Source: Chitinophagaceae bacterium T5-Br10_B2g13 (GTDB lineage: Bacteria; Bacteroidota; Rhodothermia; Balneolales; Balneolaceae). Taken from it: DNA of 34,084 nt. Below the pieces are notes generated by a model. The model was not told the origin of the DNA. It saw only the letters and a program-made list of their open reading frames with translations, and did not search any database. Shown here in pieces: positions 6,935 through 34,084 of this stretch. The stretch's first letter is position 1. Each line of letters starts with the position of its first letter. The translations under genes and the position numbers were made by a program. The stretch lies in assembly GCA_001564065.1 (NCBI GenBank), contig LKNA01000032.1, positions 1 through 34,084 of the forward strand, written 5' to 3'.

Positions 6935-9900
6935 ATGAATAATTCTCTCTTTTTAACGAGTAACGACTATTTTAAACTTCTTTTAGCAACCGTCTTCTCA
7001 TTTTCTTTTCTCCAATGTACTCCGTCGGACCGGGATGTGATCGAACTCAGCCCGGATGACAGTATTGTACTGATCGGTAATAACCTGGGCTCACGAATGA
7101 TGTATTTCGGGAATTTCGAGACCGAGCTGCACATGCGCTACCCGGATCACTCGCTACTGATTCGCAACCAGAGCATTCCGGGCGATACCCCTGGCTTCCG
7201 CCCGCACTCCTCGCGAGACAATCCATGGGCATTTCCGGGAGCCGAGCAGTTTCATACAGATCTCGTTACCGACTCCGAAAGCCAATGGGGACATCTCAGC
7301 ACAGGCCACTTCCCCTTCCCGGATGAGTGGATCTCAAAGTTCAACCCGAATGTGCTGATTACTTTTTTTGGATATAATGAGTCATTTCGTGGTCCTGACG
7401 GTGTGGAAACGTTTCAAGCCGAACTGAACGCTTTCATCGAGCACAGTCTTGCCGAGCCCTACAATGACGGCGGTGATACCGAGCTGGTTCTGGTCTCACC
7501 GATCGCTTTTGAAGACCTCTCCGGTTATTACGATTTGTCCGACGGGGTCCGGGAGAATGAAAATCTGGAATTATATACTGAGGCTATGCGGGAAGTGGCC
7601 TCCCGTCATGAGATCTGGTTTGTGGATGTGTTTACCCCAACTCGTCAATGGTATCAGCAAAGTGATGAGCCGCTGACCATCGACGGATCCCAGCTCACTG
7701 AGCAGGGTTATGCCCGCTTCGGTGCGCTGCTGGCCGATGAGATTTTTGGCAACGCCCCGGTCCAGGCAGAATCTCACCGTGAACTGATTCATGCGGCTGT
7801 ACTGGATAAAAACTGGATGTGGCACCAGGACTACAAGATTCCCAACGGCGTTCACGCCTATGGACGGCGCTTTGAGCCGTTCGGCCCGGACAACTACCCG
7901 GCCGAGATCGAGAAGACTCGCCAAATGACCGAAATCCGCGACCGGGCGATCTGGCAGGCCGCACAGGGACAGGTCATGGATGTGGCGGCCGCAGACAGGG
8001 AGCAGACCATCGAACTGCCGCCGATCGAGTCCAATTTTGACCCGGACCGCCATGGCAACCCGGAGTACCTCTACGGGCAGGACGCCATCGAGCGGCTGAC
8101 GGTGCCAGAGGGTTACAGGATCGAGCTGTTTGCATCCGAGGAGGATTTCCCCGAATTGGCCAACCCGGTGCAGCTGTCCTTTGACACCCGGGGGAGGCTT
8201 TGGGTGGCGGTTATGCCCAGCTACCCGCACTACAAGCCTGGCGATGAGCGCCCGGACGACAAGCTGATTATCCTGGAGGATACCAGCGGAGACGGACGGG
8301 CCGACCAGGTGACCACGTTTGCCGACGGGCTGCACCTGCCGCTGGGCTTTGCCTTTGCCCCGGAAGGGGTATACGTCTCACAGGGCCCGAACCTGTTGCT
8401 GCTCACAGACACGACTGGCAACGACAGGGCCGACCGCACAGAAATTCTGTTAAGTGGGTTTGACGACCACGACACCCATCACGCCCACAGCGCCTACACG
8501 ATGGATCCGTCCGGGGCGATTTACATGGCCGAGGGCGTGTTTTTGCATACCAACGTGGAGACCTCCCGGGGGCCGGTGCGGGCGACCAACGGGGGTTTTT
8601 ACCGCTACGCCCCGCAGCGTGGGCACCTGGAGCGCACCGCCCAGTTGTCGATTCCCAACCCGTGGGGGATCGCCTTTGACGAGTGGGGCCAGCAGATCTT
8701 TGCGGTCACCTCCGGCCCGGACGTGCACTGGATGATGCCGGGGACCATTAAACCCCGCTACGGGGTGGCCAGCCCGAATTCACGCAACCTGATTGAGCCG
8801 GACCACCGGGTGCGGCCGACCTCGGGGCTGGAGTTTGTCTCCAGCCGGCATTTCCCTGATCATGTGCAGGGGGATTTCCTGATCAACAATACGATCGGCT
8901 TCCTGGGCACCAAGCAGCATACGCTGTCCGATGAAGGGACCGGCTATGCCAGTCGGCACCGCCAGGACCTGGTGGTCGGGGCCGACCCGAACTTCCGGCC
9001 GGTGGACATGGAGTTTGCCCCCGACGGGTCGCTCTACCTGGTCGACTGGCACAACGTGCTGATCGGCCACATGCAGCACAACGCCCGCGACCCGCTGCGC
9101 GACCACGTGCACGGACGCATTTACCGCATTACCTACCCGGAGCGCCCGCTCCTCGAGCCGGCCAGGGTGCACGATGCGAGCATAGAGGAGCTGTTTGAGA
9201 ACCTCAGGCTTCCGGAGCTGCGTACCCGCGAGCGCACGCGGCTGGAGCTGCGGGGCCGCGTCGCCGGCCAGGTGCTGAGTTACCTGCAAACCTGGGTGGA
9301 CAACCTGGATCAGGCCGGTGAGCGCTACGAACACCACCTGCTGGAAGCGCTCTGGGTGAGCTGGGGGCTGAATCGGGTGGATGAAACCCTTTTGCGGCGA
9401 CTGCTCAATGCTGATGACTACCGGGCCCGGGCGGCGGCCGTCCGGGTGCTGCGCTACGCGGGCCACCAGGTAGCGGACCAGCCGGAGCTGCTGGCCCAGG
9501 CGGCCGGGGACCCTCACGGGCGGGTACGCCTGGAGGCGATCGTAGCAGCCTCGTGGCTGGAGATCGACCAGGGCATGGCGGTGCTCAATGAAGCGGCCGG
9601 CCACCCGCTCGACGACTGGATGGACCAGGCCTACCAGGCGGCGATGGCGCACCTGGTGGGTGAGCCGCCGGCCGACCTTGCAGAAGAAGAGGTGGATGTG
9701 GAGATGGCCGACGCCGAGCTGGAGCTCTACCTGCAGGGGCGGGAGATCTACGGCCGGGACGGCTATTGCGGGACCTGCCACGGAGCGGACGGGCAGGGGC
9801 TGACGGCGGCCGGGTTTCCTCCGCTGGCCGGAACGCGGTGGGTCAACGGAGACCCCGATCGGCTGATTAAGCTGACGCTGCACGGGCTGGCGGGCCCGAT

Positions 9901-29068: not shown

Positions 29069-30433
29069 TCACCCATCGGGTCCGCGGGCCAGAGCCATGG
29101 CCGTGGATGCCCACCCATGGCCCTCGAAGATACGAAGGAACCGGCGGCGGGCATGGCGGATGATCCGACCGGCCATATAGATCAGATTCTGCATGACCGT
29201 TCGTAGCCTCAGACGCTTGCTGGCTGACTTACGCCCGGGCACCAGCCCGCTTTTCAGCGATTGCTGGCCGATCGCTCGCAGCAGGTTGTAAGCGACCATC
29301 CCCATGTTGAGCAAGTGCTGATTGACGGAAAACTTTCCCGAGGCCAGCCGCTCCATATCCAGATCGGTTTTAAACTCACTGTGGTACTGCTCGCTGGTTC
29401 CCCGCTGCTGATAAAAGCGTTGAATCTGCTTTGGGCTCCAATTCAGAGACGTCCAGTAGGCTTCGACGGTGACCTCAGGCTCAAAAAGAAACTGTCCGTC
29501 GGGGGCGGCAAACCGCTCGATTACCCGAAAGGTAACGCGCAGCTGCTTTTCGGGCTCACCCGGCAGCCCAAGCTGACGCTCTCCATACCAGGCACGGGCA
29601 CCGATGTCGATTTTCTGGTATGGGAATTGGTCTCCGGTTTCCGTTTGGCGTTGCTTCGACTGGCGTTTGGCCAGCTCGAGCCATTCGTGGGGATCTTCTT
29701 TGCGAAGATTACGCTTGATCAAAAAATCGGTATCGTCCATTTGATCCAGCATCTGAAGGTTGTCGGTGGAATCATGGCCTGCATCAGTGACCAGAAGCCG
29801 GCGATGGGATGTGGCTTTTTCTGCCATCGCCATGGTCTGCTTGAGCCACTGACGGGTGCCCTCGCAGTTGCAGTGGGAGCTGCCTTTGCGCAGTTCGTTA
29901 TTGAGCATAAAACCGAACGGGCCGATGTAGGCAAAGATAGGCGCATACCCATTGAACTTTTTGTAGGTGCAGCTAACGCCCTCTTTTTTCGTATCGGAGT
30001 TATCCATTGGGGAGACATCTACATGGACCACGCAGTAGTCGGTTCCGTGAAGCCTCTGCCCTAGAAAATCCTGGTTTTGGCGCAACTGCCGGATGGTAAA
30101 GTTGCGAAGGACATCGCCCAGCTGCTCAGGCAACGTTTGAGTGCGCTGACGCAGACTCTCGGGCGAGGGCAGCCGATCAAGGCGCAGAGCCTGAGAGAAA
30201 AACGGTTCGTTGCGATAGTCACCAATGGCATCAAACTGGGGTTTGCCCACGGTAATCAGCCCAATCATTGAGCGGATGATGTCAATGTCCGGAATCCGGT
30301 CTTTGCGCATCGGCTGCCGGCAGACCGACGCCAAATGGTTGTGTAATTTTTGTTCAGCCAGCTGATCGCCAATAAATGCCAGACCGGCCGTGGACGTGAT
30401 GGGTGTGGAGGTAAGCTCAAATTCGAAATTCAC
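29069..30433 (-). CDS. IS1380-family transposase
   Basis: This 454-residue DDE transposase matches the IS1380 family. It has the N-terminal GLAFIGDQLAEQKLHNHL region, a first catalytic Asp in VVHVDVSPMDNSDTKKEG (D139), a second in LLVTDAGHDSTDNLQ (D217), and the C-terminal QRGTSEQYHSEFKTDLDMER block that holds the acidic partner (E348 or E353). GC content is well above that of the flanks, as expected for a recent arrival. Reading frame and motifs are intact, so it may be active. Inverted repeats at the ends were looked for and not found by eye. It is inserted between the SorC-type regulator and the sigma factor gene, whose promoter region begins just beyond 30433. Confidence 0.92.
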   Translation of the reverse strand: MNFEFELTSTPITSTAGLAFIGDQLAEQKLHNHLASVCRQPMRKDRIPDIDIIRSMIGLITVGKPQFDAIGDYRNEPFFSQALRLDRLPSPESLRQRTQTLPEQLGDVLRNFTIRQLRQNQDFLGQRLHGTDYCVVHVDVSPMDNSDTKKEGVSCTYKKFNGYAPIFAYIGPFGFMLNNELRKGSSHCNCEGTRQWLKQTMAMAEKATSHRRLLVTDAGHDSTDNLQMLDQMDDTDFLIKRNLRKEDPHEWLELAKRQSKQRQTETGDQFPYQKIDIGARAWYGERQLGLPGEPEKQLRVTFRVIERFAAPDGQFLFEPEVTVEAYWTSLNWSPKQIQRFYQQRGTSEQYHSEFKTDLDMERLASGKFSVNQHLLNMGMVAYNLLRAIGQQSLKSGLVPGRKSASKRLRLRTVMQNLIYMAGRIIRHARRRFLRIFEGHGWASTAMALARGPDG

Positions 30434-30643: not shown

Positions 30644-30750
30644 ATACTGATTGAGCCAACGCTTCACATATAAAAAACTCAATCCTTAAGAATTAGAAAT
30701 TAGAAGCCCTTCAACATATGCACCATGGGTTCCGGCTTAATAAGCAATCA

Positions 30751-30773
30751 TAGAAGCGCTTATAGAAGCGCTT
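30751..30773. promoter_or_regulatory. tandem TAGAAGCGCTT boxes upstream of the sigma factor gene
   Basis: TAGAAGCGCTT occurs at 30751-30761 and 30763-30773, each holding the palindrome AAGCGCTT, 12 bases apart. They end 50 bases before the preferred sigma factor ATG. The same core precedes the SusC-type gene. A LacI-type or other dimeric regulator could bind here. A longer open frame from 30725 would include these boxes as coding sequence, which is one reason to prefer the later start. Confidence 0.5.
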
Positions 30774-30823
30774 CCAGAAATCAAAATAATATTTGTCTAC
30801 TGGATGAATCAAACCCTATAAAT

Positions 30824-31390
30824 ATGCACAAAAAAGCTACTACCAAAGATCAAACGGAATCAGATTTATGGATAAGTTTATTAAATGGGAATAAGAAAGC
30901 ACTTGCCTCTCTGTACCTTAAAAACCACCAGATGCTTTTTAAGTATGGTTACAAAATTACACCTAAAGAAGGTTTTGTTGAAGACTGTATACAGGAACTT
31001 TTTCTTAGGATTTGGGAAAATCACAATTCTTTAAGTGAAGCTAAATCTGTTAAGGCGTATTTGTGTATCTCTATGAGGAGAACAATTTTTAAAAATCTCC
31101 GAAAGTTGAGAAATCAAAAAGACAGAAACCAGATATACGCAAAAGAGTATGATCGGCAGCCTCTATGCATGGAAGAACTGTTGATTGAGATTGAAAATGA
31201 CAAGGAAATTCAGGAAAAACTGAATAATGCTATCGATTCGTTGAGTAAAAGTGGCAGGAAAGTTATTTATCTAAAATATTACAATGGTATGTCTAATACA
31301 GAAATAGCAAATGAAATGGATATAAATCGACAAAGTGTCTACAATCATGTTTCTGAAGCAATTAAGGCAATGCAGCAGTTTGTAAAATAA
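30824..31390 (+). CDS. ECF-type RNA polymerase sigma factor
   Basis: This alternative sigma factor should direct RNA polymerase to a special promoter set. Sigma region 2 lies at about residues 23-65 (LYLKNHQMLFKYGYKITPKE, DCIQELFLRIWENHNSL). Region 4 is C-terminal (LSKSGRKVIYLKYYNGMSNT, then EIANEMDINRQSVYNHVSEA). The frame is open from ATG 30725, but starting at ATG 30824 gives 188 residues, the usual size of Bacteroidota ECF factors, and leaves the AAGCGCTT boxes outside the gene. In Bacteroidota such genes are commonly followed by a FecR-like anti-sigma gene and a SusC-type gene; here a terminator follows at once, and then IS21 debris. It may be an orphan or the survivor of a disrupted locus. 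Its targets are unknown; the SusC-type gene in this window shares the upstream AAGCGCTT motif. Confidence 0.9.
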   Translation: MHKKATTKDQTESDLWISLLNGNKKALASLYLKNHQMLFKYGYKITPKEGFVEDCIQELFLRIWENHNSLSEAKSVKAYLCISMRRTIFKNLRKLRNQKDRNQIYAKEYDRQPLCMEELLIEIENDKEIQEKLNNAIDSLSKSGRKVIYLKYYNGMSNTEIANEMDINRQSVYNHVSEAIKAMQQFVK

Positions 31391-31953: not shown

Positions 31954-32549
31954 GTTACTCAACAAAAGGTGCAACATCAGTTAAATATTTGTTATTGAAA
32001 ATATAAGATTATATAGCAGACTTTCTAAAAACTTCAGGAAGGGTTATGCATTGAATAATGTTTTATTCTGCTCGTTGTGATATCCTAAGGCAATCAAGCT
32101 CACGGTGCACACGGTAGAACAAAATTCAAATGGTATGTTTTAATAAGTTGGTATTAAAAATGCTCGAAGTTAGAACTGCAAGAAATGAAATATCTAGCAT
32201 AATCAGTCCTAAAATAGATTCGAAAACAGAAATTGCATTAAGGATAGTTTTACAGTGAAACACCGCATTCCCTGCCTGCAGATGCAGATAAATCCACTTA
32301 GATGCATTTACTATTAGAAATGAAATTAAATTGAAAAAAAAATAAAGAATGGAGAATTTGTAGTAAGCATGCTCATACGTTTGAAGTCGACCTATTTACT
32401 GACTAAACTATTCATGATGACGATAAGTTCTAGATGAATACGACGAGACTTGATTCACTCTCAAAATTTGAACCAGTTAGAATTAAGTTTTTTACTCCCA
32501 TTTCAAGCAGCTACCAGAAAAAACCTTTACCCATACCTTTACCCACTGC
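31954..32549. other. AT-rich region without a recognised gene
   Basis: About 600 bases with no open frame of note on either strand. At its right end a 12-base direct repeat (ACCTTTACCCAT then ACCTTTACCCAC, 32523-32546) sits against the long hairpin. It probably consists of decayed mobile DNA. Confidence 0.35.
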
Positions 32550-32596
32550 AAACAAATAAACCCCTAACTATATAATAGTTAGGGGTTTATTTGTTT
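32550..32596. terminator. perfect 22-base-arm hairpin, bidirectional terminator-like
   Basis: Arms 32550-32571 and 32575-32596 are exact reverse complements around the 3-base loop ATA. The core is CCCCTAACTAT / ATAGTTAGGGG, with A-rich outer flank on the left and T-rich on the right, so both directions end in a T-run in RNA. It is a strong terminator candidate for either strand. The truncated primase/helicase-like gene begins right after it, so it may also mark the edge of an inserted or deleted segment. Confidence 0.8.
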
Positions 32597-32676
32597 TACT
32601 GAGTACCTCGGGCCGGTCGTTTCCGTTCTTTCTGGACGACTACCGCAACCACGAGACCAACTCCCAGGCCCCGGAT

Positions 32677-33630
32677 ATGACCAGTAACATCCTGAACTGG
32701 TACCACCGCATTGGCACAGTCATGGCCAAGAAGAGCACCGACCACCAAACCATTGAAACGCCCATGAAGGCGTGCGTGGTGATGACCGGTAACGACAAGC
32801 CGAATGACGCGGCCGTGCTGAGCCGACTGGTGATTCTTAACTTCAACAAGTTTCTCAAGCGCGAGGAGCTGCAAACCGTTAGCGAGGTAGCCGAGCACAC
32901 CGACCGGTTCTCCAAATTCCTGGGGTTGATTCTTCAAAACTATCCAACGATTCGGAAAACTTTTTTTGCCCGGCTACAGAGCAATCAAAATTATTTAAGC
33001 GATCAGGGTTTTGAAGGACGAACCGTGAACAACTGGGCTATCATACTGGCCGGACTGGAGTGCGTAAACAATCTTTTGCCTGGACTCTCCATATGGTTTG
33101 AAAATTTTGAGGGCTTTAGAAGCGAAATTTGCAGCGCCATCCGAAAAGAGCAGTCGCTGCACACTGAGCACAACCCCATCCATGAGTTTTTCCAAAGCAT
33201 GGAGCACTATGCCACCCAGCGGTTCGATCCATCGTCCGAGCCACCGGGCAAATATTTTACGCTGGACCACCGGCACTTCCGCATTAAAGAGTTTGAAGTC
33301 GTCCGCGATCACACTGGAGCCGTGATCTACCAGGGACCGATACTGGCCATTCATTTAAAACGAGTCTGGAACGCCCTGCAGGATATCCGCGCATCCATCG
33401 CCTCAGAGATCTCCATGTCTGTATTGGAATCCCACTTGATGAACAGCAGCTATTTCTTAGATAAAAGCGTGCAAATGCTTCTCACCAAATCGATGGGAGC
33501 CAAAAAAGAGGGTAACGTTCGATGCTATATTCTCAACATAGACGAGCTTTTGTCTAAAGGAATGATGGAAGAGCTCATCGAAAAAGCCAGAGAGTACGAA
33601 AAAACCCGAGTCCAACGGTTAACTTTTTAA
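32677..33630 (+). CDS. 5'-truncated primase/helicase-like protein of a mobile element
   Basis: The frame can start at ATG 32677 (317 residues), but similarity to an ATPase core begins upstream in the same frame: about 32620-32676 reads SFPFFLDDYRNHETNSQAPD, with no start codon and no Walker A. The hairpin at 32550-32596 stands where the missing two thirds or so should be. The next blocks, MKACVVMTGNDKPNDAAVLS and RLVILNF, resemble the sensor/arginine-finger region of phage- and element-borne primase-helicases. The C-terminal part (about 100-317) is not recognised beyond a possible winged-helix-like region. This reads as the surviving tail of a replication gene of an integrative element or prophage, probably non-functional. 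Composition is more GC-rich than the DNA before it. The family call is moderate; another element-borne AAA+ ATPase is possible. Confidence 0.6.
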   Translation: MTSNILNWYHRIGTVMAKKSTDHQTIETPMKACVVMTGNDKPNDAAVLSRLVILNFNKFLKREELQTVSEVAEHTDRFSKFLGLILQNYPTIRKTFFARLQSNQNYLSDQGFEGRTVNNWAIILAGLECVNNLLPGLSIWFENFEGFRSEICSAIRKEQSLHTEHNPIHEFFQSMEHYATQRFDPSSEPPGKYFTLDHRHFRIKEFEVVRDHTGAVIYQGPILAIHLKRVWNALQDIRASIASEISMSVLESHLMNSSYFLDKSVQMLLTKSMGAKKEGNVRCYILNIDELLSKGMMEELIEKAREYEKTRVQRLTF

Positions 33631-33640
33631 AACAATAAAT

Positions 33641-33714
33641 CCCCTCCTTTTGAAGGAGGGGCCAGGGGTGGTTGTTTTTTTTCAACAATGAGAACTCTCC
33701 CCTAACAAGGGGAG
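33641..33714. repeat. pair of palindromic CCCCT-type intergenic repeats
   Basis: Two related units follow the primase-like gene. The first has the hairpin CCCCTCCTT-TTG-AAGGAGGGG (33641-33661) followed by CCAGGGGTGGTTG and a run of eight T. The second has CTCCCC-TAACAA-GGGGAG (33697-33714) followed by ATTTAGAGGGGTGTTC. Units of this kind are dispersed in many Bacteroidota/Balneolota genomes. The first could also act as a terminator. Confidence 0.7.
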
Positions 33715-33741
33715 ATTTAGAGGGGTGTTCAGACGAAAAGG

Positions 33742-33816
33742 CGTCATCCCGTACTTGATACGGGATCTCCCATTTTTGCATAGTCAGGAGATGCCGGATC
33801 GGGATCCGGCATGACG
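33742..33816. repeat. cloverleaf-like composite palindromic repeat
   Basis: An outer stem CGTCAT/ATGACG encloses three hairpins: ATCCCGTA-CTTGA-TACGGGAT, then ATCTCC paired with GGAGAT, then ATGCCGGATC-GG-GATCCGGCAT. Neighbouring stems share bases at their edges, so they are alternative or slightly trimmed pairings. Repeats opening with CGTCATCCCG and closing with CCGGCATGACG are widespread dispersed intergenic elements in bacteria. Confidence 0.75.
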
Positions 33817-33889
33817 GAATAGTTAATGAATGTTCATCTAAGTGCTAGAGAAATCCTTAAAAAAAGAAACATAAAAACAGACAAATCAC

Positions 33890-34029
33890 TGCTAACTGCT
33901 AAAAACTCTAAAAAAACCATTCATATACTATCAAAAACATCGCTTCTATTAAAAACAACTACTGCTAAACACTGCTAAGAGGTGCTAATGGCTGCTTAAA
34001 TTCTTAGCACCGATTAGCACTCTTTAGCA
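33890..34029. repeat. TGCTAA box array with 3+3 dyad symmetry at 10-base spacing
   Basis: TGCTAA occurs at 33890, 33897, 33963, 33973 and 33983; its reverse complement TTAGCA at 34004, 34014 and 34024. The last three direct and the three inverted copies each repeat every 10 bases, one DNA turn. They are mirror images about position 33996. Each box is preceded on its own strand by a variable base pair, often C or G. The arrangement fits a protein-binding array: a replication origin, a recombination or excision site, or an operator. No protein gene overlaps it. Confidence 0.8.
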
Positions 34030-34084
34030 TTTTGTTAATTAAACTGCTTAGCCAATAATCGATTAATACAGTCAAGAAAGCCCA

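Follow-up and report, generated by a model that had tools for sequence, protein, structure and literature searches.

TGCTAA boxes at the end of the contig

The window, by which we mean the whole stretch of 34,084 nucleotides that was analysed, is one whole contig (G000:C152) of a 258-contig genome. Near its 3′ end it carries part of a helicase gene, dispersed repeats and a dense group of TGCTAA hexamers; the boxes of the central row are named d1 to d4 and i1 to i3.

32599..33630, + strand: SF3/D5-like helicase gene, C-terminal ~343 residues of ~780 aa (74% and 73% identity to the Rhodohalobacter halophilus relative)
33700..33839, no strand: dispersed repeats between helicase stop and array
33890..33895, + strand: left outer box TGCTAA, -73 from d1
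33897..33902, + strand: left outer box TGCTAA, -66 from d1
33903..33962, no strand: AT-rich spacer, candidate melting region, 25% GC against 43% in the window
33963..33968, + strand: core box d1, TGCTAA
33973..33978, + strand: core box d2, TGCTAA
33983..33988, + strand: core box d3, TGCTAA
33993..33998, + strand: core box d4, degenerate (TGCTTA), filling the 10-bp lattice
34004..34009, - strand: core box i1, inverted, 11 bp after d4
34014..34019, - strand: core box i2, inverted
34024..34029, - strand: core box i3, inverted
34030..34084, no strand: right AT-rich spacer, start only, 31% GC; the contig ends before the right inverted group of the relatives
34045..34050, + strand: direct TGCTTA at +82, a box present in 8 of 12 anchored arrays

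The eight exact TGCTAA boxes of the preliminary description were all recovered at its positions (direct at 33890, 33897, 33963, 33973 and 33983, inverted at 34004, 34014 and 34024), together with the near-match TGCTAG at 33843, and the six central boxes do share the common centre 33996. The exact mirror of three and three boxes claimed for these six has to be qualified: they are symmetric but form only a subset of a larger site, in which the core row comprises seven boxes, four direct (offsets 0, 10, 20, 30) and three inverted (41, 51, 61), with the strand switch between 33998 and 34004. Since the window is one whole contig, the array is cut at 34084, 55 bp beyond the last exact box. A search with the region 33700-34084 showed that 33700-33731 and 33736-33839, or parts of these segments, also occur at 18 further places of the genome.

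Over the whole window TGCTAA is not enriched (20 copies found, 18.73 expected); 8 of the 20 copies fall within its last 195 bp. The 454 bp 3′ of the helicase stop contain 8 boxes and four same-strand pairs exactly 10 bp apart, whereas 5000 dinucleotide shuffles of this stretch gave at most 3 boxes and no same-strand 10-bp pair. As none of the 5000 shuffles matched the number or the spacing of the boxes, the earlier judgement that they are unlikely to have arisen by chance holds. A more permissive test gave a weaker result: in 3 of 300 shuffles the most frequent 6-mer, whatever its sequence, rose to 8 copies.

The helicase gene and its relatives

The replication-type gene fragment already noticed beside the boxes turned out to be the C-terminal part of an SF3/D5-like helicase gene, with a match to the relative that begins at 32602. 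The relatives carry the segments KFGxRGTGKSS, FFLDD and VMTGN, which we take to be Walker A, Walker B and the SF3 sensor, respectively. The window copy is kept from FFLDD onward and has neither the N-terminal part nor the KFGxRGTGKSS segment; because it begins only after the presumed Walker A segment, it must be truncated or mis-assembled. Just before the truncation point, at 32524-32597, there are two copies of CCTTTACCCA 12 bp apart and a hairpin-like sequence, possibly a scar. Further upstream, a DDE transposase gene (29069-30433, Pfam DDE_Tnp_1_4) adjoins a sigma-70-like gene (30725-31390).

The family phrog_1139, annotated as DNA primase, matches the window ORF (E 2.8e-7) and, across the helicase part, the R. 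halophilus relative (E 7.6e-18). Pfam and NCBIfam gave no match to the helicase, and a search of PDB sequences returned a single one at E 0.85. A second match to the helicase in the window's own genome was absent at E 1e-10. Among 128 genomes of the order, 10 were found to carry the helicase, the window's own included, which besides the window amounts to 11 genes in 9 genomes. Ten of these 11 relatives come from Rhodohalobacter halophilus (NZ_MDWE01000002.1), R. sulfatireducens, Gracilimonas (four genes, three of them in the same MAG) and MAGs labelled Balneola (one), Balneolaceae (two) and 'Bacteroidetes bacterium' (one). Plasmid and phage records contained matches to the helicase core at 20-27% identity (4 and 12 records), none of which spans 80% of the protein, and no helicase relative was detected among 63 candidate stretches of viral contigs.

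Conserved geometry of the array

Ten of the 11 relatives have the array 3′ of their helicase gene, and it also lies behind the truncated gene of the window. Absence of the array from close relatives which keep the element had been named beforehand as an argument against a specific role; with one relative of 11 lacking it, the outcome favours such a role. Counted from the first base of the helicase stop codon, the first box follows after 28-232 nt in nine relatives and after 262 nt in the window; in G015, which has a 99-aa gene between helicase and array, it follows after 1059 nt. With a second array in G117 and one on contig C200 of the window's own genome, 13 arrays are available. The comparison of geometry comprises the 12 that have an anchored core; it leaves out G124, the contig of which ends after the first core box, although its three boxes fit the geometry.

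Anchoring was done on a direct row at 10-bp steps, with the one-base variants TGCTAG, TGCTAT, TGCTTA, CGCTAA and TGCTCA allowed, and the occurrence of direct boxes at 0/10/20/30 in all 12 anchored arrays is therefore partly given by construction. Most boxes outside this row are likewise displaced by no more than 1-2 bp. The inverted core boxes are at 41/51/61 in 9 of the 12 arrays, the exceptions being G015 (41/51/62) and G057 and G119:C23, which have a single inverted core box, at 51. The position of d4 is occupied in the other 11 anchored arrays by TGCTAA (6), CGCTAA (4) or TGCTCA (1). Left boxes are found at -72 to -74 and at -65 to -66 in all 11 anchored arrays that reach that far, and the left spacer measures 60 bp with 20-38% GC (33-38% in G015, G057 and G119:C23). 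On the right, a further inverted group near +135, +145 and +153 would fall beyond the contig end of the window. Seven of the 11 arrays reaching there have three boxes at +134/135, +144/145 and +152/153; G018 has the first and the third, G015 has three boxes shifted about 11 bp closer, and in G057 and G119:C23 the group comprises two boxes, at +134 and +142. In the last three arrays the right half is offset by about 10 bp.

The plan common to the arrays is thus a left pair, a 60-bp spacer, the core set, a second spacer and the right group, with up to 13 boxes. Boxes on the left side point to the right and those on the right side point to the left; the exceptions are the box at +82 and, in G057, another at +101. 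Several arrays belong to close relatives (the five Gracilimonas arrays are mutually 93-97% identical), and the number of independent lineages is therefore small. The four-base spacers between boxes vary between lineages and are mostly non-complementary, which marks the box spacing itself as a conserved trait. No exact DnaA box was found in the 12 anchored arrays; matches with one mismatch occur in six of them, at differing places.

Occurrence of the pattern in other genomes

A search pattern of two phased direct and two phased inverted boxes was found at 10 places in 7 of the 128 genomes of the order, and the reversed pattern, used as control, at none. Eight of these places lie behind a helicase gene, the other two being G000:C200 and G117:C3:406290. 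In 395 genomes drawn across the phylum, partly overlapping the 128, nothing new was detected. The preliminary description had taken recurrence of the same spacing at many unrelated places as evidence against a specific role; no match outside this array set was found in the 128 and 395 genomes, and nine stretches in viral contigs do match, in other contexts, which we judged by eye to be unrelated. Two viral contigs (L070 7009-7047, L076 2117-2176) show phased TGCTA repeats, apparently within coding sequence of genes that, by eye, are perhaps replication genes.

A candidate for the box-reading protein

Only one of the 11 helicase relatives, G019, has no TGCTAA boxes. We compared its helicase in an alignment of nine of the 11 relatives and the window piece, which left out G116 (L052, in-frame TGA) and G117. 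In the N-terminus (42-56%), the middle part (55-62%) and the core (59-66%), the G019 protein is as similar to the others as these are among themselves. In residues 601-779, however, it shows 30-37% identity (9 pairs), compared with 45-53% among the array-bearing helicases (23 pairs, core identity 62-70%); if only the last 90 residues are compared, the two ranges overlap (31-43% for G019, 41-57% for the array-bearing ones). Since this C-terminal part is divergent in the only member that lacks the boxes, the comparison suggests, from this one lineage, that the C-terminal domain of the helicase reads the TGCTAA boxes. Downstream of the divergent G019 helicase (L051 12600-13160), copies of TCCGCA/TGCGGA were seen as possible alternative iterons. 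This candidate was unconvincing, since its 7 copies in 900 bp were reached by 12 of 300 shuffles and its 6 copies in 608 bp by 15 of 300.

Other genes of the module offer themselves less readily. The small genes preceding the helicase form two groups in the 11 relatives with no BLASTP match between the groups. The small HTH-like protein of G019 resembles three array-bearing ones at 41-54% identity; because it falls into an array-bearing group, this protein neither tracks the boxes nor explains their loss in G019. Integrase and 430-462-aa genes also vary, and the helicase is common to modules with both.

Arrays without a helicase

A complete array with all 13 boxes was found at G117:C3:406290-406346 (L077, about 9199-9432), where the 19 kb read contain no helicase gene. 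On one side it is bordered by a gene for a tyrosine integrase of 434 aa, on the other by one for a type IIG restriction enzyme, and one helicase island is present elsewhere in the G117 genome. Its homology to five helicase islands (90-92% identity) starts at most 4 bases from the end of the helicase stop codon, spans the array and ends at the following repeat. At the same aldo-keto reductase locus, G119 and G057 have related integrases but no array, and integrase and array may therefore have joined separately in G117. A clean empty site for this island was not found. The second array in the window's own genome (G000:C200:1-215, L019) differs from that of the window; its contig starts inside the array, which is followed by an XRE-type gene and a ZorB-like/type I restriction region.

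Loci such as that of G117 could belong to islands that have an origin module and no initiator, either as non-autonomous satellites replicated in trans by a co-resident helicase island, or as decoys that titrate the initiator of an invader, a defence by origin mimicry. We consider this idea speculative and rather unlikely; the G117 array may equally be a decaying remnant.

Genes surrounding the arrays

PADLOC models matched 7 of 10 nearby genes, which had been chosen for scanning by eye: a CBASS cyclase, a SAVED-HNH effector and a type I methyltransferase in G018, Drt2 in G015, the type IIG restriction enzyme beside the helicase-less array of G117, and ZorB-like and type I restriction genes on C200. 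In G018 a Na/Ca exchanger gene stands between the array and the defence genes. Some or all of the defence genes near arrays may be island cargo. Phage structural genes were not recognised by eye among the ORFs read near the arrays.

In Gracilimonas, a repeat (TATATGAGTAAAC.GGAATAAAACAGCATT with flanks) occurs 3′ of arrays (L053:12928 and 13548, L038:6146 and 6659, L077:8893, L083:6736-6976), sometimes twice, around an XRE-type gene. It is also seen in G114 behind a different module, which by eye contains integrase and primase-like genes.

Interpretation of the array

The preliminary description had offered an origin, an excision or attachment site and an operator as possible roles. The first is best supported, because an initiator-type helicase gene lies just 5′, the spacing is conserved and the C-terminal domain has diverged where the boxes are missing; attachment site and operator fit less well. 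The TGCTAA boxes are most probably the iterons of the replication origin of a Balneolaceae integrative genomic island, placed 3′ of its initiator helicase gene. The island copy in the window is damaged or mis-assembled, with its helicase truncated and the presumed origin cut by the contig end.

Phased direct repeats flanking a centre, as present here, resemble the arm sites of integrases, and the array could accordingly be part of an attachment or excision complex, with arm-type or excisionase sites for the tyrosine integrase of the island. Such an integrase is encoded in the module of 5 of the 11 relatives (in three of the five, G018, G124 and G019, downstream of a tRNA-Arg or tRNA-Met gene), in a sixth relative (G119:C28, L047) an integrase gene lies beyond a 430-aa gene, on the opposite strand, and the helicase-less array of G117 adjoins one. 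However, the integrase of the modules sits at the end away from the array, and the array is kept in the 6 of 11 relatives in which a 430-462-aa gene replaces the integrase; tblastn with eight integrases detected none in the stretches read for 5 of these 6 modules (G118 being cut by its contig). Integrases of array-bearing members differ down to 22-28% identity, and G019 has an integrase and no TGCTAA array. Furthermore, boxes of other families stand upstream of the integrase gene (GGTACAT/ATGTACC) or of the 430-aa gene (GGTAACT, at ~11-bp steps), as seen at L044:7220-7395, L053:7540-7780 and L048:7275-7340, which argues against the TGCTAA boxes as arm sites. As far as the compared sequences go, the array does not track the integrase, and we regard a role in attachment or excision as improbable. 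A search of tRNA tails and direct repeats did not find an attL/attR pair; only a 16-bp near-repeat from tRNA-Arg to the integrase was present in G018 and G124, with no far copy.

Phased inverted boxes are likewise common in operators, and XRE-type genes downstream of arrays in G119 (L053) and C200 could point to an XRE or HTH protein regulating the helicase or cargo genes. We hold this to be very improbable, since the array sits behind the helicase gene, the presence of boxes does not follow the type of small HTH-like protein, and the next gene differs between members: on the helicase strand it encodes DUF2779 (G015), a Na/Ca exchanger (G018) or, in C200, an XRE protein, on the other strand an XRE protein (G119:C36) or a BsuPI protein (G116). 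A partition (centromere-like) site or an incompatibility or decoy locus, for which phased direct repeats are usual, would agree with such repeats in the array and with the existence of a copy without helicase; against it, the array is closely linked to the helicase gene and no ParA/ParM-like gene was recognised by eye among the ORFs read beside arrays, and we give this reading very little credit. The 26-nt arms in the window are 85% complementary, which would agree with an RNA or DNA hairpin (a terminator-like cruciform). However, in most arrays 0-2 of the 4 spacer bases are complementary, with all 4 pairing in a single spacer pair of C200, G057 and G119:C23, and no Rfam family matched the window at gathering scores, which leaves the hairpin with a negligible probability.

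For an island origin, the following sequence of events can be proposed. The C-terminal domain of the helicase would bind the 6-bp boxes, and two helicase assemblies, of an oligomeric state that we presume, would be laid head to head on one face of the DNA. Head-to-head loading would suit the site, because the left boxes point right and the right boxes point left, with the exceptions named above. The assemblies might then melt the AT-rich spacer, and copying of the excised island would start at the array.

If this is true, the Balneolaceae island family acquires a concrete replicon, the origin of which is very regular and has up to 13 boxes, and a testable DNA-reading domain. It would also provide a natural origin copy without helicase, useful for tests of helicase placement and of islands that parasitise or block each other via their origins, and the pair of helicase and array could serve as a marker for finding such islands.

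Comparison with known replication systems

In the literature searched, with partial coverage, we found no description of the TGCTAA array or its element. The closest parallel is offered by SaPI and other PICI elements. The PICI origin directly follows the 3′ end of the initiator gene and has its iterons in two sets, one on either side of an AT-rich region (PMC6092414), and the SaPI Rep helicase reads its iterons through the C-terminal domain (PMC7581432). The array described here is alike in its place 3′ of an initiator helicase gene and in its short iteron sets beside an AT-rich region. It differs in having up to 13 boxes (a left pair, a phased core of 4+3, the +82 box and a right triplet), in its occurrence in Balneolaceae, and in a helicase without Pfam or NCBIfam match or meaningful PDB-sequence match.

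A second parallel is Cch2 of SCCmec, a D5-type helicase reported to bind, also by the isolated C-terminal domain, to a repeat downstream of its own gene, a putative origin as in our case (PMC7581432). SCCmec differs in that its site consists of three iterons (AAGTG) in a 23-bp repeat region and in its recombinases, CcrAB or CcrC. The RepA-ori of PLE in Vibrio cholerae is also a modular replicon in which the DNA-binding domain of the initiator covaries with the origin (PMC8263062). Unlike the helicase reported here, its initiator belongs to the RepA_N family, with no helicase or primase activity predicted, and its three iterons are semi-palindromic and ~30 bp long (PMC7145576, PMC8263062). By analogy, the Balneolaceae array would represent a helicase-linked iteron origin of the kind known from SaPI/PICI and SCCmec.
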